NCBI GenBank assembly: GCA_938028625.1
Contig: CALIZB010000020.1
Location: forward strand, 1-45,314
DNA: 45,314 nt
Origin: an uncultured Bacteroidia bacterium
Lineage (GTDB): Bacteria > Bacteroidota > Bacteroidia > JANWVE01
Reading direction: 5' to 3'
Part shown: one piece after another, positions 35,725 through 45,249 of the stretch
Layout: each line of letters starts with the position of its first letter
How positions within the stretch are numbered: the stretch's first letter is position 1
Made by a program: the position numbers and the translations under genes
The notes under the pieces: model-generated
Databases searched by the model: none
What the model was told of the DNA's origin: nothing
What the model saw: the letters and a program-made list of their open reading frames with translations, nothing else

Positions 35725-37125
35725 TTAGTTTCTATTCTCATTTAGTAATTTCTCTATAGTTTGATTTATGATATCATAGGGATTTTTTTCCTCTTCGCTT
35801 ATATTTATTTTTTGCTTTAACCATTTTACTATTTCTTGTGTTTCATAGACACTTTTTATCTCTTCCTCGTCAGGTGCTTCAAAACTATGTGCGCCTATAC
35901 TTTTATTTCGCATCTGTTGTAAGCAATATGCTGTTTCTATACACTGGTAATCCTCCTTTAAGTATGAACCTTCAATAGATTGAAAATAAAATAATAATTC
36001 TTTTAATAAGTGTGAAGATGGGTCTTTACTTTTATATCTCAAATCCTTTTCATCTAACCATTTTTTAAGTTCGGGTTTAGTTTTAAGATAATTCTCAAAA
36101 ACTTTTTCCCAATTATTTGAAGTATATTCAATTTGAGTAATTTTAACGACTTCTTTGACAAGAATTTCCTCTATTAACCTAAAAAAACGAACTAAAAAAT
36201 CTACATAATTTTTTTGTCTATATTTTATATCTACATTCCAAAAAAGTTCTTGTAATTTTAGCTGACTACTCTCCTTTTCAATAATAGTATTCAATTCTCT
36301 CAATGCATTATTTCTTATGTTATGGTTGTTCACTTTGGAAAGTGCGTGTCGTGCTTTTTCAAAGTTAAACATCATTCTATAGTGTGCATACTGAGCAAAA
36401 TACTTTACATCATCAGAAACAAATTCTAATTCATTTATACCTTCATACAGATAGCCTTTAATCATTTTTCTAACCGTGTTATTATCATTACTTTGTAAAA
36501 ATTGCCGAATAGACTGAATAGGAGAAGCTGTACCTGTATCTTCATTTACATGTAATTCGGACTGAATTTTCGTACCTAACTTCTGTATGGCATTAAAACG
36601 TATGGACGTGTTAATAGCATCAATACCACCAACTAAATGCAAATAGATATTTTCATAATCATTAAGCATATTTAAGTTTTTGTTTTTTTGAAATACTCCA
36701 TGAATATACTTATACATTTTATCCAAATAAACTACTTCATCGCTTGTTATTTTGAATATCTCTATTTTGGATACATTTCCGTAGTTCTGGGCAATATATT
36801 TTTTGATGATTTCTGCATAATAATAGGTATCTGTATCTCGTGGAGTCTCTTGGTCGGTGGCTATAAGTAGCAGATAATCTATATTTTTAATCTCATGCTG
36901 TAAGTATTTTAGTGTGGGTTCTATGATAGGAATTTTAATATGTTTTTTTAGAGTATCATAGTTTTGGTTAATAAATTCACCTGCCTTTCGGGCCATGAGT
37001 GTGTTATTTTTAGGATTGATGTACTCTTGATATTTTTCTGGAAGTTTTTCTTTGAGTATAGACAAATCTACTTGTACATCGCGGGTGCCTACCGTAACAA
37101 TTAATGCGTTTTTTTTATTCTGCAT
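35725..37125 (-). CDS. csm6: Csm6 (CARF-HEPN cyclic-oligoadenylate-activated ribonuclease)
   Basis: Ancillary RNase of the type III system, switched on by cyclic oligoadenylate made by Cas10. The 466-residue protein starts with a CARF-like Rossmann domain (ALIVTVGTRDVQ, LLIATDQETPRDTDT, LHLVGGIDAINTSIRF, which takes the place of the TGGTP loop). The C-terminal HEPN domain carries the catalytic R-x6-H motif RNKSIGAH (R406, H413). The ring size it responds to (cA4 or cA6) cannot be read from sequence. It is the last gene of the operon, 14 bases after csm5. Confidence 0.87.
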   Translation of the reverse strand: MQNKKNALIVTVGTRDVQVDLSILKEKLPEKYQEYINPKNNTLMARKAGEFINQNYDTLKKHIKIPIIEPTLKYLQHEIKNIDYLLLIATDQETPRDTDTYYYAEIIKKYIAQNYGNVSKIEIFKITSDEVVYLDKMYKYIHGVFQKNKNLNMLNDYENIYLHLVGGIDAINTSIRFNAIQKLGTKIQSELHVNEDTGTASPIQSIRQFLQSNDNNTVRKMIKGYLYEGINELEFVSDDVKYFAQYAHYRMMFNFEKARHALSKVNNHNIRNNALRELNTIIEKESSQLKLQELFWNVDIKYRQKNYVDFLVRFFRLIEEILVKEVVKITQIEYTSNNWEKVFENYLKTKPELKKWLDEKDLRYKSKDPSSHLLKELLFYFQSIEGSYLKEDYQCIETAYCLQQMRNKSIGAHSFEAPDEEEIKSVYETQEIVKWLKQKINISEEEKNPYDIINQTIEKLLNENRN

Positions 37126-37139
37126 AGTACTATGGTTTA

Positions 37140-38279
37140 TTAGTTAAAAATAAGTTTGATAAAACCTAATGGTGTACCATCAGGCAAAAAACGGCGAGTT
37201 TTAGGTAAAGGAAATTTGTCATATTTTTCACCTCTTGGTCTTACTTTAATCTTGAACTCATTAAATTCACTCTGATTCATAACTTTCTCATGCCCTTGCC
37301 AATCACCCGTCATAAAATTAAAACCTATATGTTTTCCTAAACGAAGTACACATTCATTATTTTTACATTGTTCTACATCATTTAAAAGTTCCATAAGACG
37401 TTCTTTGTAATCATACAAATTATCATCATCTTGTTTTCGGATAAAATCTATTTCTTTTTTTAACATATTTTTTAGATGTGTGTTAAGCGTTTGGGTAAAA
37501 GTTTGTACATCAGCAATAAGCGTATGATTTTTACCTGTATAATCTATAATTTCAGATTGTATAGACTTATGTAATGACTTTTTCACGGTTTCATTCCATA
37601 AGTTTATACGAGTATTTGCAGACGCTCCTGTTGGAATAACTTCTGTCCATTGAGATAAATCATCTCTTTCTTCCCATCCCTCGCCGCGCATATTATAGGA
37701 ACACACCTTGCAGATTTTTGTATTTTGAAAAACCACATCACCTACTTGTAAAAATCGTAAAAAGTCTTTGTTTTGTGCATCTTTCTCAGGATTATCAGCA
37801 AAATAACTCTTTATCAGAGTAGTATCATTATAATGATTGTCATTTTTTCGGTTAAAACTTACCCTTGCCAAATCAGGGTTTTTAGTAATCATTTGTGCAA
37901 GTAAAGCAGTACGAATAGCACCTTTAAGTGAAGAACCAGGAATATAAGGTTTTAGCAATCCATTATGAATATGTTCATATACAAAAGTTTTATCTCCAAT
38001 ACTTCCTTCTACATAAGTTATTCTTTTTGCAATATCTTGGGGTTTTATGTCATTCTTTATGCTTCTCAAAAGTGATAAAAGGTCTTGTCGGTTTTGAATG
38101 TTATTCATCCATTTTTCAAAATGAGCATCTGTAACAATCGTATAGATTTTATTTTCATCAAGTATAGCCAAAGGTTTGTTATTCAAGTTAGAGAAGAATA
38201 TAAAATCTATATTTTTAGTAAGTTTTCTTTCACTTCCTACGTGTACAGCAGTTAAGGTTTTGATAGTAACATTACTCAT
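37140..38279 (-). CDS. csm5: Csm5, type III-A RAMP subunit
   Basis: Caps the 3' end of crRNA in the Csm complex. The 379-residue protein has the RAMP glycine-rich segment PYIPGSSLKGAIRTALL and the C-terminal RFLPDGTPLGFIKL. N-terminus VTIKTLTAVHVGS matches the first strand of Csm5. A cysteine pair CKVC sits in the middle and may bind zinc. 14 bases separate it from csm4 and from csm6. Confidence 0.9.
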   Translation of the reverse strand: MSNVTIKTLTAVHVGSERKLTKNIDFIFFSNLNNKPLAILDENKIYTIVTDAHFEKWMNNIQNRQDLLSLLRSIKNDIKPQDIAKRITYVEGSIGDKTFVYEHIHNGLLKPYIPGSSLKGAIRTALLAQMITKNPDLARVSFNRKNDNHYNDTTLIKSYFADNPEKDAQNKDFLRFLQVGDVVFQNTKICKVCSYNMRGEGWEERDDLSQWTEVIPTGASANTRINLWNETVKKSLHKSIQSEIIDYTGKNHTLIADVQTFTQTLNTHLKNMLKKEIDFIRKQDDDNLYDYKERLMELLNDVEQCKNNECVLRLGKHIGFNFMTGDWQGHEKVMNQSEFNEFKIKVRPRGEKYDKFPLPKTRRFLPDGTPLGFIKLIFN

Positions 38280-38293
38280 AGTACAAATTAAGG

Positions 38294-39271
38294 TTATTCA
38301 GTTTTTTTGACAGGAATAAAAATAGGTCTACCTTCGCGGTATACAGGATGTTGGATATTTTGGGGGGCAAGGTCAGCAAGTTTTCCTTTCAAGGTTTGCG
38401 CGTGAAATACAGAACCTTCCTGAAACATATACAAAGATTTTTTTCGGTAATTCATTTTAGTTACATCTTGTGGGTTAGCTAAATATCCCCCACGTTTAAT
38501 GAGTTCATAAGACGATGTTAATGTATTTATCTGTTCTATGTCATTGCGTGTAGGGCAGTATAAAGACAAATTCAATAAATATTCAGAGGTTTGAGGGACA
38601 CGTAAAGTCATCTGTGTTTTTTCTAATACAGGTTCAAACTGTCCATTTCCTATGGTTTTATAGCTTCCCACTCCATTCTGACCTAAAAGATAAAATGCGG
38701 GCATAAGTTTTTGGTGTAAAAAGTCTGTTGTACACTGTACTAATACATATAAACCTGCGTCTTTTTCAAAATAAATGCGTTCAAAATAAAAAGGGTCTGA
38801 GTCTTGTCCATAATTGATTTTTACACGGCTTTGTTCTTCTCGGAAGTATATTTTAGGGTTATTTTGGGCATCAAACTGTAATGAAAGAAATTTAGCATTT
38901 GTAGTAAAGTTATTTAAGGAAATATCCGCATTTTCGTTATGAATACACTTTTCAAATAGCGTTTTATCTAACCATTGCAGTTTTTTAAGTTTCTTGATAT
39001 TAGATGGATTTTGTTCTTTGATATTCAAAGAAAGTTTGAGAAAAGGTTTCGGAAAGAATCTGGTTTCTTTATAGTACGGAAAAGCAGAGGATAAACTAAA
39101 TGAGTCAAAAAAATTAGAGCTAAAATCACCAAAAAGTTGTGTATAACAAACAAATAAAGCACTTTTAAGGGTATCAGAGTGTAAAAAATCCTGAGAATCG
39201 GAATAATCTTCGCTACCTTTAGAAATATGTAAAGGTGAAATAAACTGTAATCTGATTACATGAAACTGCAT
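38294..39271 (-). CDS. csm4: Csm4, type III-A RAMP subunit (crRNA 5' end)
   Basis: Binds the 5' tag of crRNA and contacts Cas10. The 325-residue protein begins MQFHVIRLQFISPLHISKG, contains SDTLKSALFVCY, and near the C-terminal half LLGQNGVGSYKTIGNGQF, a Gly-rich loop typical of Csm4. ATG 39271 is preferred to an upstream TTG (39280) that is adjacent to the csm3 stop. 9 bases after csm3. Confidence 0.9.
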   Translation of the reverse strand: MQFHVIRLQFISPLHISKGSEDYSDSQDFLHSDTLKSALFVCYTQLFGDFSSNFFDSFSLSSAFPYYKETRFFPKPFLKLSLNIKEQNPSNIKKLKKLQWLDKTLFEKCIHNENADISLNNFTTNAKFLSLQFDAQNNPKIYFREEQSRVKINYGQDSDPFYFERIYFEKDAGLYVLVQCTTDFLHQKLMPAFYLLGQNGVGSYKTIGNGQFEPVLEKTQMTLRVPQTSEYLLNLSLYCPTRNDIEQINTLTSSYELIKRGGYLANPQDVTKMNYRKKSLYMFQEGSVFHAQTLKGKLADLAPQNIQHPVYREGRPIFIPVKKTE

Positions 39272-39280
39272 AGTTATCAA

Positions 39281-40015
39281 TTATTTACTTCGGAATATTT
39301 CAGGAATAGAATAGAGTGTATATTCTTTTTCTTGTTTTTCAGCAGATTTGTAGTACTCATTAGTTCGTTCAGTTACGGAGGATAAAGTAAATTTTATTTG
39401 TCCATAACCTCTTGAACCTGAACCGCCAAGATAATCATCTTGAATAAGTTGTAAGCCATCAAATATAGCTTTTACCAGTTCTTTTTCTTGGTTTTCATCA
39501 TGGCTATTCATGATATTAAGTACGATATTGAGTTCAAATTCTGCACCTGCGGGTACGCGCTCCATAATACGCGGGTTAGCTTTAGACGTAATTCTGTCAA
39601 TAGTTACTTCAGTTTTTACTTCTGCATATGGTACATCTGTATTTTTGAATAGTTCTTCTGCACTTAATAAAGACGCATCTCTAAAAATAACATAAGATGG
39701 GTGCTGGTTTTCGTCATTAGTAGATGTACCAAACAAACGGCATGAAAGAGAATTAGGATTATCAGAGACGCCGTATTGAATTTGTTTACTGGGGTCGCGT
39801 CCAATAGTTCCATCGCGAAGTTCTATCAAAGCGCGCATTTTGCCTTTAAGCGAACTACCTGGAATGTATGGCTTATTATCTATGGGATTACGGATAATGA
39901 TATTATCCAAGCCCCCGATAGACATGGCCGAAGAGCTACCTCCTATACGAAGCCCCGTGAGTAATTTAATTTTACCTCTGAATAAAATTTTTTTCTTTAA
40001 TCCTAATGTACTCAT
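39281..40015 (-). CDS. csm3: Csm3, backbone and target-RNA nuclease subunit
   Basis: Repeating backbone of the Csm complex that cuts bound target RNA every six bases. The 244-residue protein (ATG 40015) shows TGLRIGGSSS, the catalytic Asp in GGLDN (D37, equivalent to D33 of the Streptococcus thermophilus protein), PYIPGSSLKGKMRALIE, and GGSGSRGYGQIKF. All features needed for RNase activity are present. The longer frame from 40048 would run into csm2 and is not needed. 19 bases after csm2. Confidence 0.94.
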   Translation of the reverse strand: MSTLGLKKKILFRGKIKLLTGLRIGGSSSAMSIGGLDNIIIRNPIDNKPYIPGSSLKGKMRALIELRDGTIGRDPSKQIQYGVSDNPNSLSCRLFGTSTNDENQHPSYVIFRDASLLSAEELFKNTDVPYAEVKTEVTIDRITSKANPRIMERVPAGAEFELNIVLNIMNSHDENQEKELVKAIFDGLQLIQDDYLGGSGSRGYGQIKFTLSSVTERTNEYYKSAEKQEKEYTLYSIPEIFRSK

Positions 40016-40034
40016 AGTTTTATGTAATTTAAAG

Positions 40035-40496
40035 TTATTTACCTCCATGAACCTTATGATACGCTAGTATAGCTTCTAAAAAATCAATAAAATTCTTAAA
40101 CCGTCTAGTGAATTCAGCCGTATCATTCTGAACTTCTTTGACTGCTTTATGCGCCTCTAAAATAACTTTTTCAAATAAATCTGCACCTTTATTACCTTGG
40201 CGCTTTACTGCATAAGAAAGTTTAGGTTGTAATAAAAGAAAAGCTGTTTTTTCTTTCTCTATACCTTTCATTTCAATTCTTCGTACTTCACCAAAAAAGT
40301 TTCTTATTTGGTTAGTAGTAAATTTTTGATCAGCTATAGCTTCACCAAATTTATCAGCAAAATCAATAGCATCTTTACCGTTAAATTTTTCTCCAAGTCC
40401 TTTGGTTATCCAGTCTTTGGTGAATTGCTCTAACCAATGTTTAGTATTATCCTCTTTGTTTTTTTGGTCAAAATTCTTTTTATTAAATGTATTCAT
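40035..40496 (-). CDS. csm2: Csm2, small subunit of the type III-A complex
   Basis: Small alpha-helical subunit that lines the target-RNA channel. The 153-residue protein carries the family pattern TTNQIRNFFGEVRRIEM and LLLQPKLSYAVKR. N-terminus is Lys/Asn-rich and probably disordered. Its first 14 bases overlap the end of cas10, so translation is coupled. Confidence 0.92.
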   Translation of the reverse strand: MNTFNKKNFDQKNKEDNTKHWLEQFTKDWITKGLGEKFNGKDAIDFADKFGEAIADQKFTTNQIRNFFGEVRRIEMKGIEKEKTAFLLLQPKLSYAVKRQGNKGADLFEKVILEAHKAVKEVQNDTAEFTRRFKNFIDFLEAILAYHKVHGGK

Positions 40497-42837
40497 AGTT
40501 TTTTGTATTTGAAGGTTTAAAGTTCACATCATTTTTAAGTTCCAATTCTGCCCAACGAGCAGATAAGTTAAGCAATTCAAGAAAACTATATGAACTACTT
40601 ATTTTTTTGCCTTTGTATGTATTTGTCAGAATGCTATTTTTCAAATCGGTAATAAAAATTTTAACAGAGTCATCTTTTTTACGGTCTAATGCTCTTTTGA
40701 AGTCATAAGACATAATCCATCTCCAGCTTTCATTTTCTTTACTTTTACGTTGTATAATAGACATTTGATAAAAAGTCTGAATTTTATGTAAAAAGCCTTT
40801 GGGAAGTTTTTCTTGTTTAAGCCATTGTGAAAGAGTATCTTTTAGTTCTTTAACCAAAGGAAACTCATGTTCCCAATTTAGGGGTATATCTAATATACAA
40901 ATAGCATTTTTTTGTTGTCCATTAACCTTGTGATTTTTAGCTTTTTCTTCGGCTTCTCCTGCGGTATCTGCGGCTTTGAGTATAGGATATTTAGCAGTTA
41001 CAATAGACACGCCCGCAGATAAAGTCAATTTAGGATTATGACAAGCCCATTTTTTGAATTCCGTTCTTACAGCTTCGGCAAATTCAATTACTTTATCCCA
41101 TTTTCCCACAATAAATAAATCATCGCCACCTGCATACACAATATAAATCCATTTTTCAAAATCAGATTTACTTTTCCATATTGTGTTGATATATCCTTTG
41201 AAAAAATAATCCAAAGAACGGCTTAGAGCACTATATCTCGCAAAAGTTGCATATTTACCTAATCCTTGTGTAAAAGTATTACCAAGATTATCCACGTCCA
41301 TACGAAGTATGCCTAAACGCTTAAATGAGTCCTTTTCATCTCCTGCTAAATCATTAAAGTTTTTAGGTACGTGCCAATTATCCGACCTAACAGGTGCTTG
41401 ATTGCCCCCATAAAAAGCAAAAGAATATACAACATCCGCAGGACTATTCCATTTAGTTTTGTTAAAATCATCAGGATTATTGAACTGAATAAGCGTAAAA
41501 GGAACACCCTCAGGAACAGTAGGTAATTCATCAAAAAAGTACCAATGAATGCCTAAATTCATAGGATTTTGATAGTGTAACGGTGTTTTTTCTTTCCACT
41601 TTATCGCCTGCGTAGATTGTACAATATACCTTGTCTGACGAAGGTATTTTCCTAAATCTATCTGTTGTTTAGTGAGCTCTAATACATATTTTTTTTGATA
41701 GTCAATTTCTTTTACGGGCTGTTGTAATATATCCTCTTCTGTAATTTCGTATACTCTATTGTTGTTAAGGTCTTTTGTGCTAATTTCTTGATTAGTAATT
41801 ACATCTTTTTTTAATAATCCTCCTTGTTCTGTTTCTTCAAAAAAGTATGTGTATTCTGTAACCAATTTAGACACATATTTTAAGCCTTTTTTACGATTTA
41901 GTTTATCAATTAGCTCTGTCCATTTTTGGCTGAGTGCATTATTTTGTCCTGAAATCTCTGTATAAGAAAGTTCTGTAAATGCAATGTTAAGTAAAAGTTG
42001 AGTTCCAAACTCCCTAAAAATGGCGTCAGAAACGAGTTTTTCTACTTCATTTATCGTTTTTTTAGTGTTTTCTGTATTGGGTACAAGAAGATAAAAACCT
42101 CCTCCTGAGGCATATACTATATTTGTATGAAAAAGTTTTAATTCATACAATAGCTTTTCTATAACAGAGTCTACAAGAAGTTGTAAGAAAAATGAGCGTC
42201 CTTTTAAGTTTTTTGTAGCAAATTTACTGATAATGTTATAGATATACTTTTGAATACCTGATATACTACCTCCTAAAAAGAGTACAGGCTTATCACTTTC
42301 TTGAACTTCATTTTTTTGATATTCTGTAACATAGTCATATAAACATGTTGCTATGGCGGCTGTCATACGAGAGTGGTCATACAAGGACACGTCAGAAAGT
42401 TCAGGTATGCCACAAGGTATAGTAACTGTATATTTATGCAACAAATTAGTGCAATTTTCAATAAATAAAGCGAGATTTTCGCGAGGTAATAGATTAGCTT
42501 TTTCAAAAAACTCTTGTATAAGTTTTTCAAAATGAGTATAATTAGACTGTTTATTGTTGTTTTTTGGAAAAAAACTCTGTTGTAAGGTTATTTTTACAGG
42601 TTCAAAAGTATGTTCTGACTTCTGTGCATTGAGTTCTCCTAATACAGAGTGCAGATAATACTTTGGGATACTATCTTGGGGGGCTTGTCCGCTTGATGAC
42701 CATAGTTCTGCTTTTTGTATTAGATTTTGGTACAGAGTATCTTTTACAGGTGTGTAACCATACAGATTAAAGACACTTGTGTAAGTTTTAGCAATGCGAT
42801 GCAATAATGCCGACAAAATAAATTCTTCTCTTTTCAT
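40483..42837 (-). CDS. cas10: Cas10/Csm1, signalling subunit with degraded HD motif
   Basis: Large subunit of the Csm complex; makes cyclic oligoadenylate when target RNA is bound. The 784-residue protein has the first Palm loop ASGGGFYLL (243-251) and the second Palm with the cyclase motif YAGGDDLF (568-575; GGDD at 570-573) and DVDNLG (514-519). In the N-terminal HD domain the expected HD pair of LLHDIGK reads HR (LLHRIAK, residues 11-17), while the later LYDHS (152-156) is kept. No CxxC pairs are present where Cas10 proteins often have a zinc-binding finger (about 330-400). The cyclase should be active and DNA cutting is probably lost. Starts one base after the cas6 stop. Confidence 0.93.
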   Translation of the reverse strand: MKREEFILSALLHRIAKTYTSVFNLYGYTPVKDTLYQNLIQKAELWSSSGQAPQDSIPKYYLHSVLGELNAQKSEHTFEPVKITLQQSFFPKNNNKQSNYTHFEKLIQEFFEKANLLPRENLALFIENCTNLLHKYTVTIPCGIPELSDVSLYDHSRMTAAIATCLYDYVTEYQKNEVQESDKPVLFLGGSISGIQKYIYNIISKFATKNLKGRSFFLQLLVDSVIEKLLYELKLFHTNIVYASGGGFYLLVPNTENTKKTINEVEKLVSDAIFREFGTQLLLNIAFTELSYTEISGQNNALSQKWTELIDKLNRKKGLKYVSKLVTEYTYFFEETEQGGLLKKDVITNQEISTKDLNNNRVYEITEEDILQQPVKEIDYQKKYVLELTKQQIDLGKYLRQTRYIVQSTQAIKWKEKTPLHYQNPMNLGIHWYFFDELPTVPEGVPFTLIQFNNPDDFNKTKWNSPADVVYSFAFYGGNQAPVRSDNWHVPKNFNDLAGDEKDSFKRLGILRMDVDNLGNTFTQGLGKYATFARYSALSRSLDYFFKGYINTIWKSKSDFEKWIYIVYAGGDDLFIVGKWDKVIEFAEAVRTEFKKWACHNPKLTLSAGVSIVTAKYPILKAADTAGEAEEKAKNHKVNGQQKNAICILDIPLNWEHEFPLVKELKDTLSQWLKQEKLPKGFLHKIQTFYQMSIIQRKSKENESWRWIMSYDFKRALDRKKDDSVKIFITDLKNSILTNTYKGKKISSSYSFLELLNLSARWAELELKNDVNFKPSNTKNYEYI

Positions 42838-42838
42838 G

Positions 42839-43582
42839 TTAGTTTTGCGAAGAGATATAAATAGTTTCTGGGTATGTGTTGTATTTTTCTTCTGATAAGT
42901 TTTCCAAAGATGTTTTTTTTACTCTTTTAACCATACCAAAACCTACGCTACTTGCTTTACCTAATCCTATGTAATCCGGCAGGGAGATATTAGTTTCAAA
43001 AGTAACATCAAAAGTAAGAAAATCAATTTTCTTGTATTTTATCCACTTCTGAGCATGAATGCGATGTATACCTACAAAAACACGGTCATAGATGTTACAC
43101 TGTAAGTGTTGTATAAAAGCCATGATGTGAGCTGTCATTAATTTTTCAAGCATGGCTACTTTTTCTCTAAGCAATTCAGTATTTTGAAACTTTTGATAGT
43201 TTTCAGAATTGAGTGCCATCCAATTATAGATTTTGTAGACAAAAACTTTGTCCCATGCTTGACATACATGATGAAATAAACTAACAGACTCTACATTTAA
43301 TTGAAAACTATGGTCATACACTTGCACAGTTTGATTTGGACTTGCAATTAAATTTAGTACTATATCTGCACCTCCCTCTAATGCAATTATATACAGTTTA
43401 TTTTGATATACTTTGTGTTGAATAAGCGGATAGTGATAAAGAAGTTTTTTGTTGTCAAGATGGTGGTGTTGCCATACAGACTTTTCAGGATATAAATTTG
43501 ATAATGCCGCTCTGAATGCAGGAATTTCATTCAATTTAAGCGAATTGTCAAACTTTAAGCGTGCACACCTTAGTTTTTTCAT
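42839..43582 (-). CDS. cas6: Cas6, CRISPR RNA-processing endonuclease
   Basis: Cuts the array transcript within the repeats. The 247-residue protein has two ferredoxin-like halves; the C-terminal loop YIGLGKASSVGFGMVKR is the glycine-rich Cas6 motif, and the segment LLYHYPLIQHKVYQNKLYI matches Bacteroidota Cas6 proteins. The catalytic residues cannot be fixed from sequence, though His residues are abundant (WQHHHL). It is the first gene of the cas operon; no clear -7 element could be assigned in the 125 bases upstream. Confidence 0.85.
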   Translation of the reverse strand: MKKLRCARLKFDNSLKLNEIPAFRAALSNLYPEKSVWQHHHLDNKKLLYHYPLIQHKVYQNKLYIIALEGGADIVLNLIASPNQTVQVYDHSFQLNVESVSLFHHVCQAWDKVFVYKIYNWMALNSENYQKFQNTELLREKVAMLEKLMTAHIMAFIQHLQCNIYDRVFVGIHRIHAQKWIKYKKIDFLTFDVTFETNISLPDYIGLGKASSVGFGMVKRVKKTSLENLSEEKYNTYPETIYISSQN

Positions 43583-43707: not shown

Positions 43708-44484
43708 CTAAAAACAAAATCCTATACGTGCCGTAGCAAACTTGTAATACGCTCTTCCTTCAATATACCGAATATAATTTATGAGTAATATTGTGTAGTA
43801 TTCTTGCCATTTATATCCTACATTGAATAAAAACGCCGTGTTTTTAGAAATAAATGTCTTTACTCCTAACTGAACGTGGAATATAGCTCCGTTATCACTA
43901 AGCTCATTTATATTAAAAGCCTTTCCAGCATTCAATATAAGACTTGGAGTTATCTCACCTTTGAAAGGATTTAATCGGACGTCCGCCATTATGGGAATAA
44001 GATTAGTTTTCTGATAAACATCCATTCCCAAGCCAAGACCCATAGAAAAATGCTGATTAAATTGGTATCCATTTGTCCAGCGAAAAGCAAAAGCTCTATC
44101 TCCATTATTTGTGTAGTAGTTATTTAACTTTACTTTACCTACACCATACGAATAACCTGCTTCTAATATACTTGTATAACCACTTTTTTTGTATTTATTT
44201 TCTTTTTCTTTCTGTGTTGTTTGTGTAGGATTATCAGTATTATTTGTGCTTACAAATTCCTTAGTAATTTTTTCAATTTCGTCATACTTAAAGAAGAACA
44301 CATTTCTATCCTTGGTTTGAATTTTAATACTTTGATTAGGGACCTGTTCAATAATAATTCCTCTGATAATACTGCCATTTTTTAGATAAACGACTTCTTC
44401 TATGGTTTGAGAATACGAAACAGAGCAAAATAACAGCAATACGAATAAAGTGAGCAATGAATAATGAAAAGTTATTATTTTCAT
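43708..44484 (-). CDS. outer-membrane beta-barrel protein with N-terminal YLKNGS domain
   Basis: A 258-residue protein. Signal peptide ends VSYSQ; a small all-beta domain (VVYLKNGSIIRGIIIEQVPN, FFKYDEIEKITKE) is followed by a Thr/Asn/Lys-rich linker and an eight-strand-like barrel that ends in Phe (ARIGFCF). Such proteins are common in Bacteroidota and not known to be linked to CRISPR. It sits between the array and the cas operon on the same strand and has its own promoter, so it is probably unrelated to them in function. Confidence 0.75.
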   Translation of the reverse strand: MKIITFHYSLLTLFVLLLFCSVSYSQTIEEVVYLKNGSIIRGIIIEQVPNQSIKIQTKDRNVFFFKYDEIEKITKEFVSTNNTDNPTQTTQKEKENKYKKSGYTSILEAGYSYGVGKVKLNNYYTNNGDRAFAFRWTNGYQFNQHFSMGLGLGMDVYQKTNLIPIMADVRLNPFKGEITPSLILNAGKAFNINELSDNGAIFHVQLGVKTFISKNTAFLFNVGYKWQEYYTILLINYIRYIEGRAYYKFATARIGFCF

Positions 44485-44616: not shown

Positions 44617-45249
44617 AGAAGAACCATAATGGACGGTGTTTACACCCGGATTTAGGATTTTCGATTTCGGATTTAGTTGTAATCCCCTACAAATGAACAT
44701 TACATACATCAGTTCGGTGGCTGAGCGTAGCCGAAGCCACCGATGTTCTAATCCCCCTACGAATGGACGGTGTTTACACCTACGTCTAGATTATCAAGTA
44801 CAGGTTGGTAGGTTGTAATCCCCCTACAAATGGACGGTGTTTACACCCCCGCAAAATTAGTGCGCGTTGGGTCGCGGTTGTAATCCCCCTACAAATGGAC
44901 GGTGTTTACACCCCTGTAAAGAAGGGGTTTATTTATTTATAAGTTGTAAGTTGTAATCCCCCTACAAATGGACGGTGTTTACACCTGTCCACATTGCTGT
45001 TATTCGAAAGACGCCGTTGTAATCCCCCTACAAATGGACGGTGTTTACACCCCTTGTTCAGTGGTTTAACGGTCAAATATCCGTTGTAATCCCCCTACAA
45101 ATGGACGGTGTTTACACCAAAGAATCGTAAAACAAGAAAAAAACGTAAGTTGTAATCCCCCTACAAATGGACGGTGTTTACACCTTAACTCATTTTTAGA
45201 AAAAAAATGGGTTGTTGTAATCCCCCTACGAATGGACGGTGTTTACACC
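44611..45249 (-). CRISPR. CRISPR array of the type III-A system
   Basis: Eight well-kept 36-base repeats start at 44745, 44812, 44877, 44950, 45016, 45083, 45149 and 45214; on the plus strand they begin GTTGTAAT and end TTTACACC. The first reads GTTCTAAT, and 44745 and 45214 share a CTACGAAT variant. The seven spacers between them are 31, 29, 37, 30, 31, 30 and 29 bases. Two decayed repeats precede them (44611-44646, only its last 19 bases intact; 44676-44710, one C short and its last half eroded). Decay on the left, an AT-rich stretch on the right and a minus-strand terminator at 44581-44616 indicate transcription on the minus strand from the right, giving crRNA tags ATTACAAC. Confidence 0.95.
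44711..44744. repeat. REP-like palindrome in the position of a spacer
   Basis: Between the second decayed repeat and the first good one lies a 34-base unit whose core is CGGTGGCT (44715-44722) and AAGCCACC with G (44734-44742) around GAGCGTAGCCG. Words of this kind (GGTGGCTGAGCGTAGCCGAA) are known chromosomal palindromes in Bacteroidota. Its length fits a spacer exactly. Confidence 0.6.

Follow-up and report, generated by a model that had tools for sequence, protein, structure and literature searches.

The DNA analysed here, a stretch of 45,314 nucleotides from an uncultured Bacteroidia bacterium (hereafter the window), carries a type III-A CRISPR locus in which the HD domain of Cas10 is, to judge from its sequence, a stub without a plausible metal site and in which the cyclase motifs are intact. 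The locus is very probably a signalling-only III-A system, predicted to cut target RNA and to make cyclic oligoadenylate without single-stranded DNase activity.

The type III-A locus and its Cas10 HD remnant

The locus comprises a seven-gene operon on the minus strand (43582-35725) encoding Cas6, Cas10/Csm1, Csm2, Csm3, Csm4, Csm5 and a CARF-HEPN effector. Csm1 to Csm5 lie within this single operon and all five scored above the curated cut-offs, which identifies the system as type III-A (Csm); a CRISPR array and Cas6b provide the source and the processing of crRNA. The features are as follows.

44745-45249, no strand assigned: CRISPR array, 8 repeats of 36 nt (GTTGTAATCCCCCTACAAATGGACGGTGTTTACACC), upstream of the operon and towards the window end
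42839-43582, minus strand: cas6, Cas6b-type, crRNA processing (PF17262, 8e-31; PF17955, 8e-19)
40483-42837, minus strand: cas10/csm1, 784 aa, ATG start; HD domain a stub, cyclase (palm2) intact
42787-42807, minus strand: LLHRIAK, Cas10 residues 11-17, remnant of the HD motif LLHDIGK (motif check and alignment)
42685-42717, minus strand: QKAELWSSSGQ, Cas10 residues 41-51, what is left of the final HD helix (alignment, with coordinates calculated from the residue numbers; QKADxxSSGxDR in intact relatives)
41119-41130, minus strand: GGDD, Cas10 residues 570-573, active site of the cyclase (without variation in two alignments of homologues)
40035-40496, minus strand: csm2 (Cas11) (TIGR01870, 2.6e-18)
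39281-40048, minus strand: csm3 (Cas7), predicted target-RNA nuclease with catalytic Asp D48 (TIGR02582, 6.8e-63)
38294-39280, minus strand: csm4 (Cas5) (TIGR01903, 4.7e-66)
37140-38279, minus strand: csm5 (TIGR01899, 2.8e-28)
35725-37125, minus strand: Csm6/Csx1-family CARF-HEPN effector (HEPN motif; PDLC01509, 1.6e-56; fold match to Enterococcus italicus Csm6)

The repeats of the array are mostly perfect; a degenerate partial repeat (44628-44647) and a further partial match (44684-44713) were found beside it. Between the array and cas6 lies a gene for a predicted beta-barrel outer-membrane protein (43708-44484, minus strand; weak Pfam match). The same 36-nt repeat was also observed on three other contigs of this genome, C45 (64388-64818), C100 (56-356) and C163 (10006-10567). 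These arrays are situated at contig ends and may be either pieces of a single long array broken by the assembly or several arrays served by the III-A locus.

The window Cas10 was assigned to Csm1 (TIGR02578, E 1.8e-152). The original prediction described a lost HD motif alongside an intact cyclase, and its particulars were borne out: the open reading frame spans 40483-42837 on the minus strand, LLHRIAK occupies residues 11-17, GGDD and DVDNLG are present at residues 570-573 and 514-519 respectively, and codon 14 (CGC) encodes Arg in place of the HD-motif Asp. The extent of the loss, however, had been understated. An alignment with Csm1 relatives and a structure model, checks of the kind that had been suggested, reveal a larger lesion. 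The HD motifs of Csm1 have established roles as metal ligands. Relatives in which the domain is intact (L074, L075, L076, L081 and L099) all have HDIGKF...HKHVLWT...HH...(S/A)SG-DR, and the N-terminus of the nearest relatives reads (I/L)LHDIGKFYQR...HKHVLWTAQF...HH...QKADxxSSGxDR. In the window Cas10 only 23 residues separate LLHRIAK from QKAELWSSSGQ, compared with 85 between the same anchors in L074; approximately 62 residues net are gone after LLHRIAK, the HKH and HH motifs among them. A second stretch, past the SSGxDR position, is likewise missing in the same alignments. Residue 34 of the protein is the first to align with TIGR02578, at profile position 63; in intact relatives the alignment sets in at profile positions 2-5. 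The AlphaFold model of the protein (alignment of 33 sequences, mean pLDDT 87) contains only two helices (3-22 and 35-47) before residue 65; taken overall, it resembles solved structures of Csm1.

The window Cas10 thus lacks the HD motif and the His motifs that mark an active HD single-stranded DNase: the Asp is replaced by Arg14, and HKH and HH are deleted. Since some 62 residues bearing both His motifs have gone as well, we read the domain as a stub and not as the product of a point mutation, the Asp-to-Arg change being the smaller part of the loss. The possibility that the HD region is encoded in another frame was ruled out, as cas10 starts directly after cas6 (the stop codon of which ends at 42839) and the intervening DNA is absent. 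An assembly error or concealed frameshift is unlikely given that the residues on both sides of the gap have decayed too (LLHRIAKTY against LLHDIGKFY; SSSGQAP against SSGxDR). Comparable motif decay was seen in HD-less relatives reading LHKIG (L083), LHGIG (L111) and LHGVG (L114). A separate Csm1 (L101:9452-12013, plus strand) keeps LLHDIGKF and has SRHL at the position of its relatives' HH motif; it is possibly an intermediate in HD decay.

Activities predicted to be retained and the proposed mechanism

The palm2 domain was recognised with its GGDD (PF22335, E 1.6e-39), a motif that is invariant across an alignment of 33 homologues and present in every HD-less Cas10 listed among the relatives. 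Within Csm3, D48 is located in the IGGxD loop; as the equivalent residue is Asp in all 88 of the 88 aligned Csm3 proteins, the cutting of target RNA should be intact.

The effector possesses an N-terminal CARF domain and a C-terminal HEPN domain with an RX4-6H motif (RNKSIGAH, residues 406-413). Among 24 homologues, little or no variation is seen at G13, G166-167, R406, N407 and H413. Pfam and NCBIfam gave no firm family placement (PF09670 below cut-off and no match, respectively), and the protein was assigned by PADLOC together with fold comparison. Its model (pLDDT 91.5) is best matched by E. italicus Csm6 and by Streptococcus thermophilus Csm6' with cA6 (or an analogue), followed by Thermus thermophilus Csm6 bound to cA4; sequence identity to the top Foldseek matches is 11-14%. 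A phmmer match in the PDB (6pz0, E 0.0028) was weak and irrelevant and was discarded. The Csm6-family label is fair, and the best fold matches hint at a cA6-type messenger.

In the mechanism we propose, an expressed crRNA-guided complex would bind target RNA, which Csm3 would cleave. Target binding would turn on the Cas10 palm cyclase, and the resulting cyclic oligoadenylate (cA6 or cA4) would activate the CARF-HEPN RNase, whose gene is the last of the operon. Single-stranded DNase activity of the HD domain would have been lost altogether, its metal-binding core having been deleted and the remaining motif having decayed. The expectation that the system signals and cuts RNA without degrading DNA is therefore well supported at the level of sequence, by the cyclase motifs, Csm3 D48 and the deletion of most of the HD domain.

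HD loss among relatives and the alternatives weighed

A scan of the collection with a single Cas10 as query returned no matches, and an alignment-based scan returned 80 loci. A tree was built from the core sequences of 86 Csm1 proteins, leaving out the HD region (61 HD-intact, 19 HD-less and 6 unscored); the figure of 19 in 80 is not a frequency, as the HD-less rows were partly hand-picked from genome searches, and the counts hinge on the rules by which motifs were scored and on whether a contig extends far enough. This tree requires no fewer than 10 changes of HD state. The window Cas10 groups with that of L074 (a Thermoflavifilum MAG, HD intact, 54% core identity) and with L082, the HD region of which lies off the contig. 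Given its position beside HD-intact L074, the loss is placed most simply on the window's own branch. Terminal branches are longer in HD-less rows (median 0.73 versus 0.32); HD-intact rows are more densely sampled, and for this reason the gap was not taken to indicate relaxed constraint.

The original prediction further held that loss of the nuclease makes immunity depend on Csm6. In its strong form, whereby the operon Csm6 enabled the loss of the HD domain and immunity relies strictly upon it, this extends the signalling-only reading without excluding it, and we regard it as possible, with somewhat under an even chance of being correct. An effector with an intact HEPN motif is indeed present directly downstream, and in staphylococcal III-A immunity the importance of CARF effectors is greatest if the Cas10 DNase is missing (PMC12715507). 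Against this, the effector family is about equally common beside Cas10s with an intact HD domain, adjoining 20 of 43 HD-intact and 6 of 15 HD-less proteins at loci with enough flank; on five independent pairs, at supported branches, no association between HD state and effector was detected, with low power. Moreover, a gene order ending in CARF-HEPN is common to the window and to HD-intact L074, L075 and L076, so the effector was most likely present before the HD domain was lost. With at least 10 changes of HD state that the Csm6-family effector does not visibly track, the data suggest that effectors usually predate HD loss and are not replacements for the nuclease. Other effectors occur at HD-less loci, namely a Card1-like protein and Csx1-Csx20 in L092 and Csx1 in L103. 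A gene for an AAA_15 (OLD/AriA-like) ATPase lies between csm4 and csm5 (L095:15176-17431) or immediately after csm5 (L088:8237-10735) in two HD-less III-A loci that are sisters; such a partner is unusual, and it is possibly an ancillary effector.

A second CARF-HEPN gene, unlinked to any cas gene, also weighs against strict dependence; it was found on contig C30 of the window's genome (L179:6305-7510, minus strand; 401 aa, Csx1-like, PDLC01802, E 2.4e-93), and its product is possibly a second receiver of the same messenger. A palm2 search of three fragmented genomes of the genus yielded five Cas10s, all five of them with GGDD and without a usable HD domain: the window stub; a III-B Cmr2 from the same genome that starts TIGPVQSFI (L156:2-1597, minus strand); a III-B Cmr2 from G001 (L178:3140-4861, minus strand); and two III-A Csm1 proteins from G002, one with an unrecognisable N-terminus (L160:6289-8613, minus strand) and one of 472 aa that begins at the SGIQNF domain (L177:6826-8244, plus strand). 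Also against strict dependence, no CARF effector adjoins L160, itself an HD-less III-A locus of the same genus. By eye, a 458-aa protein encoded beside the G001 III-B operon (L178:624-2000, minus strand) has the look of a CARF plus nuclease domain architecture. It is a fair conclusion that immunity would depend on signalling; the Csm3 RNase may contribute to immunity as well, and strict dependence on a single Csm6 gene is a possibility.

That the locus is instead decaying, with HD loss as the first step of inactivation and immunity already gone, is improbable. Such decay would account for a large in-frame deletion flanked by a decayed motif and for the lack of cas1 and cas2 by the locus within the window, cas1 being found on other contigs beside Cas9 (L155, C111) and Cas12a (L154, C145), where a small cas2-like gene was also assigned by eye at each locus. 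Yet the seven genes are open and in ancestral order with their catalytic residues intact, GGDD and the HEPN motif included, and the array has mostly perfect repeats of a sequence that recurs on three further contigs. We hold to the signalling-only reading. A broader proposal, that the CRISPR types here divide the work between them and type III has become a dedicated RNA-sensing alarm, seems doubtful. Least credible is a residual DNase, whether through an alternative metal site in the stub or another DNA nuclease recruited by the complex: the motif still has His13 and Lys17, but the Asp is replaced, the His residues of both other motifs are deleted and not simply substituted, a search of the window's genome gave no Cas3-type HD protein, and its second Cas10 (III-B) is also without an HD domain.

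Comparison with known systems

A Cas10 that lacks the HD domain and keeps the cyclase is an already known and common condition, of which the window locus is one clean further example. Among 1113 type III loci, Hoikkala, Graham and White (2024) recognised an HD domain in 39% (65% of III-A) and a cyclase in 92%, and used the presence of a cyclase and absence of HD as a criterion in their search for new effectors (PMC11229360). Like the HD-less III-A Csm systems of that survey, the window locus has a III-A operon, a palm2 GGDD and an effector adjoining the complex genes. Unlike them, it keeps a recognisable HD stub (LLHRIAK and the last helix), and the loss can therefore be traced to a deletion on its own branch.

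Experimental precedent for signalling comes from the Vibrio metoecus Cmr system, whose Cas10 is without an HD domain and which acts via cA3 and NucC; HD-less III-B Cas10s in Bacteroidetes were already pointed out in that paper (PMC8682760). The window locus shares the HD-less Cas10 and, by prediction, the cyclic oligoadenylate route. The two differ in that V. metoecus carries a III-B system with the cA3-activated DNase NucC, whereas the window carries a III-A system with a CARF-HEPN RNase. Similarly, a staphylococcal III-A Cas10 with a mutated HD domain (H14A, D15A) still signalled to CARF effectors (PMC11645235, PMC12715507). The window effector itself resembles E. italicus Csm6 (PDB 6tug), its best fold match, in combining CARF and HEPN; sequence identity is only about 12%, and the likeness is one of predicted fold.

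The closest counterpart is the III-A locus of Thermoflavifilum sp. HOT.MAX.088 (L074), which has the same layout (cas6-cas10-csm2-csm3-csm4-csm5-CARF-HEPN) and a Cas10 core 54% identical to that of the window, and differs in its intact HD domain (LLHDIGKF, HKHVLWTAQF and HH). Together, the two loci form a natural pair for testing the role of the HD nuclease in immunity.
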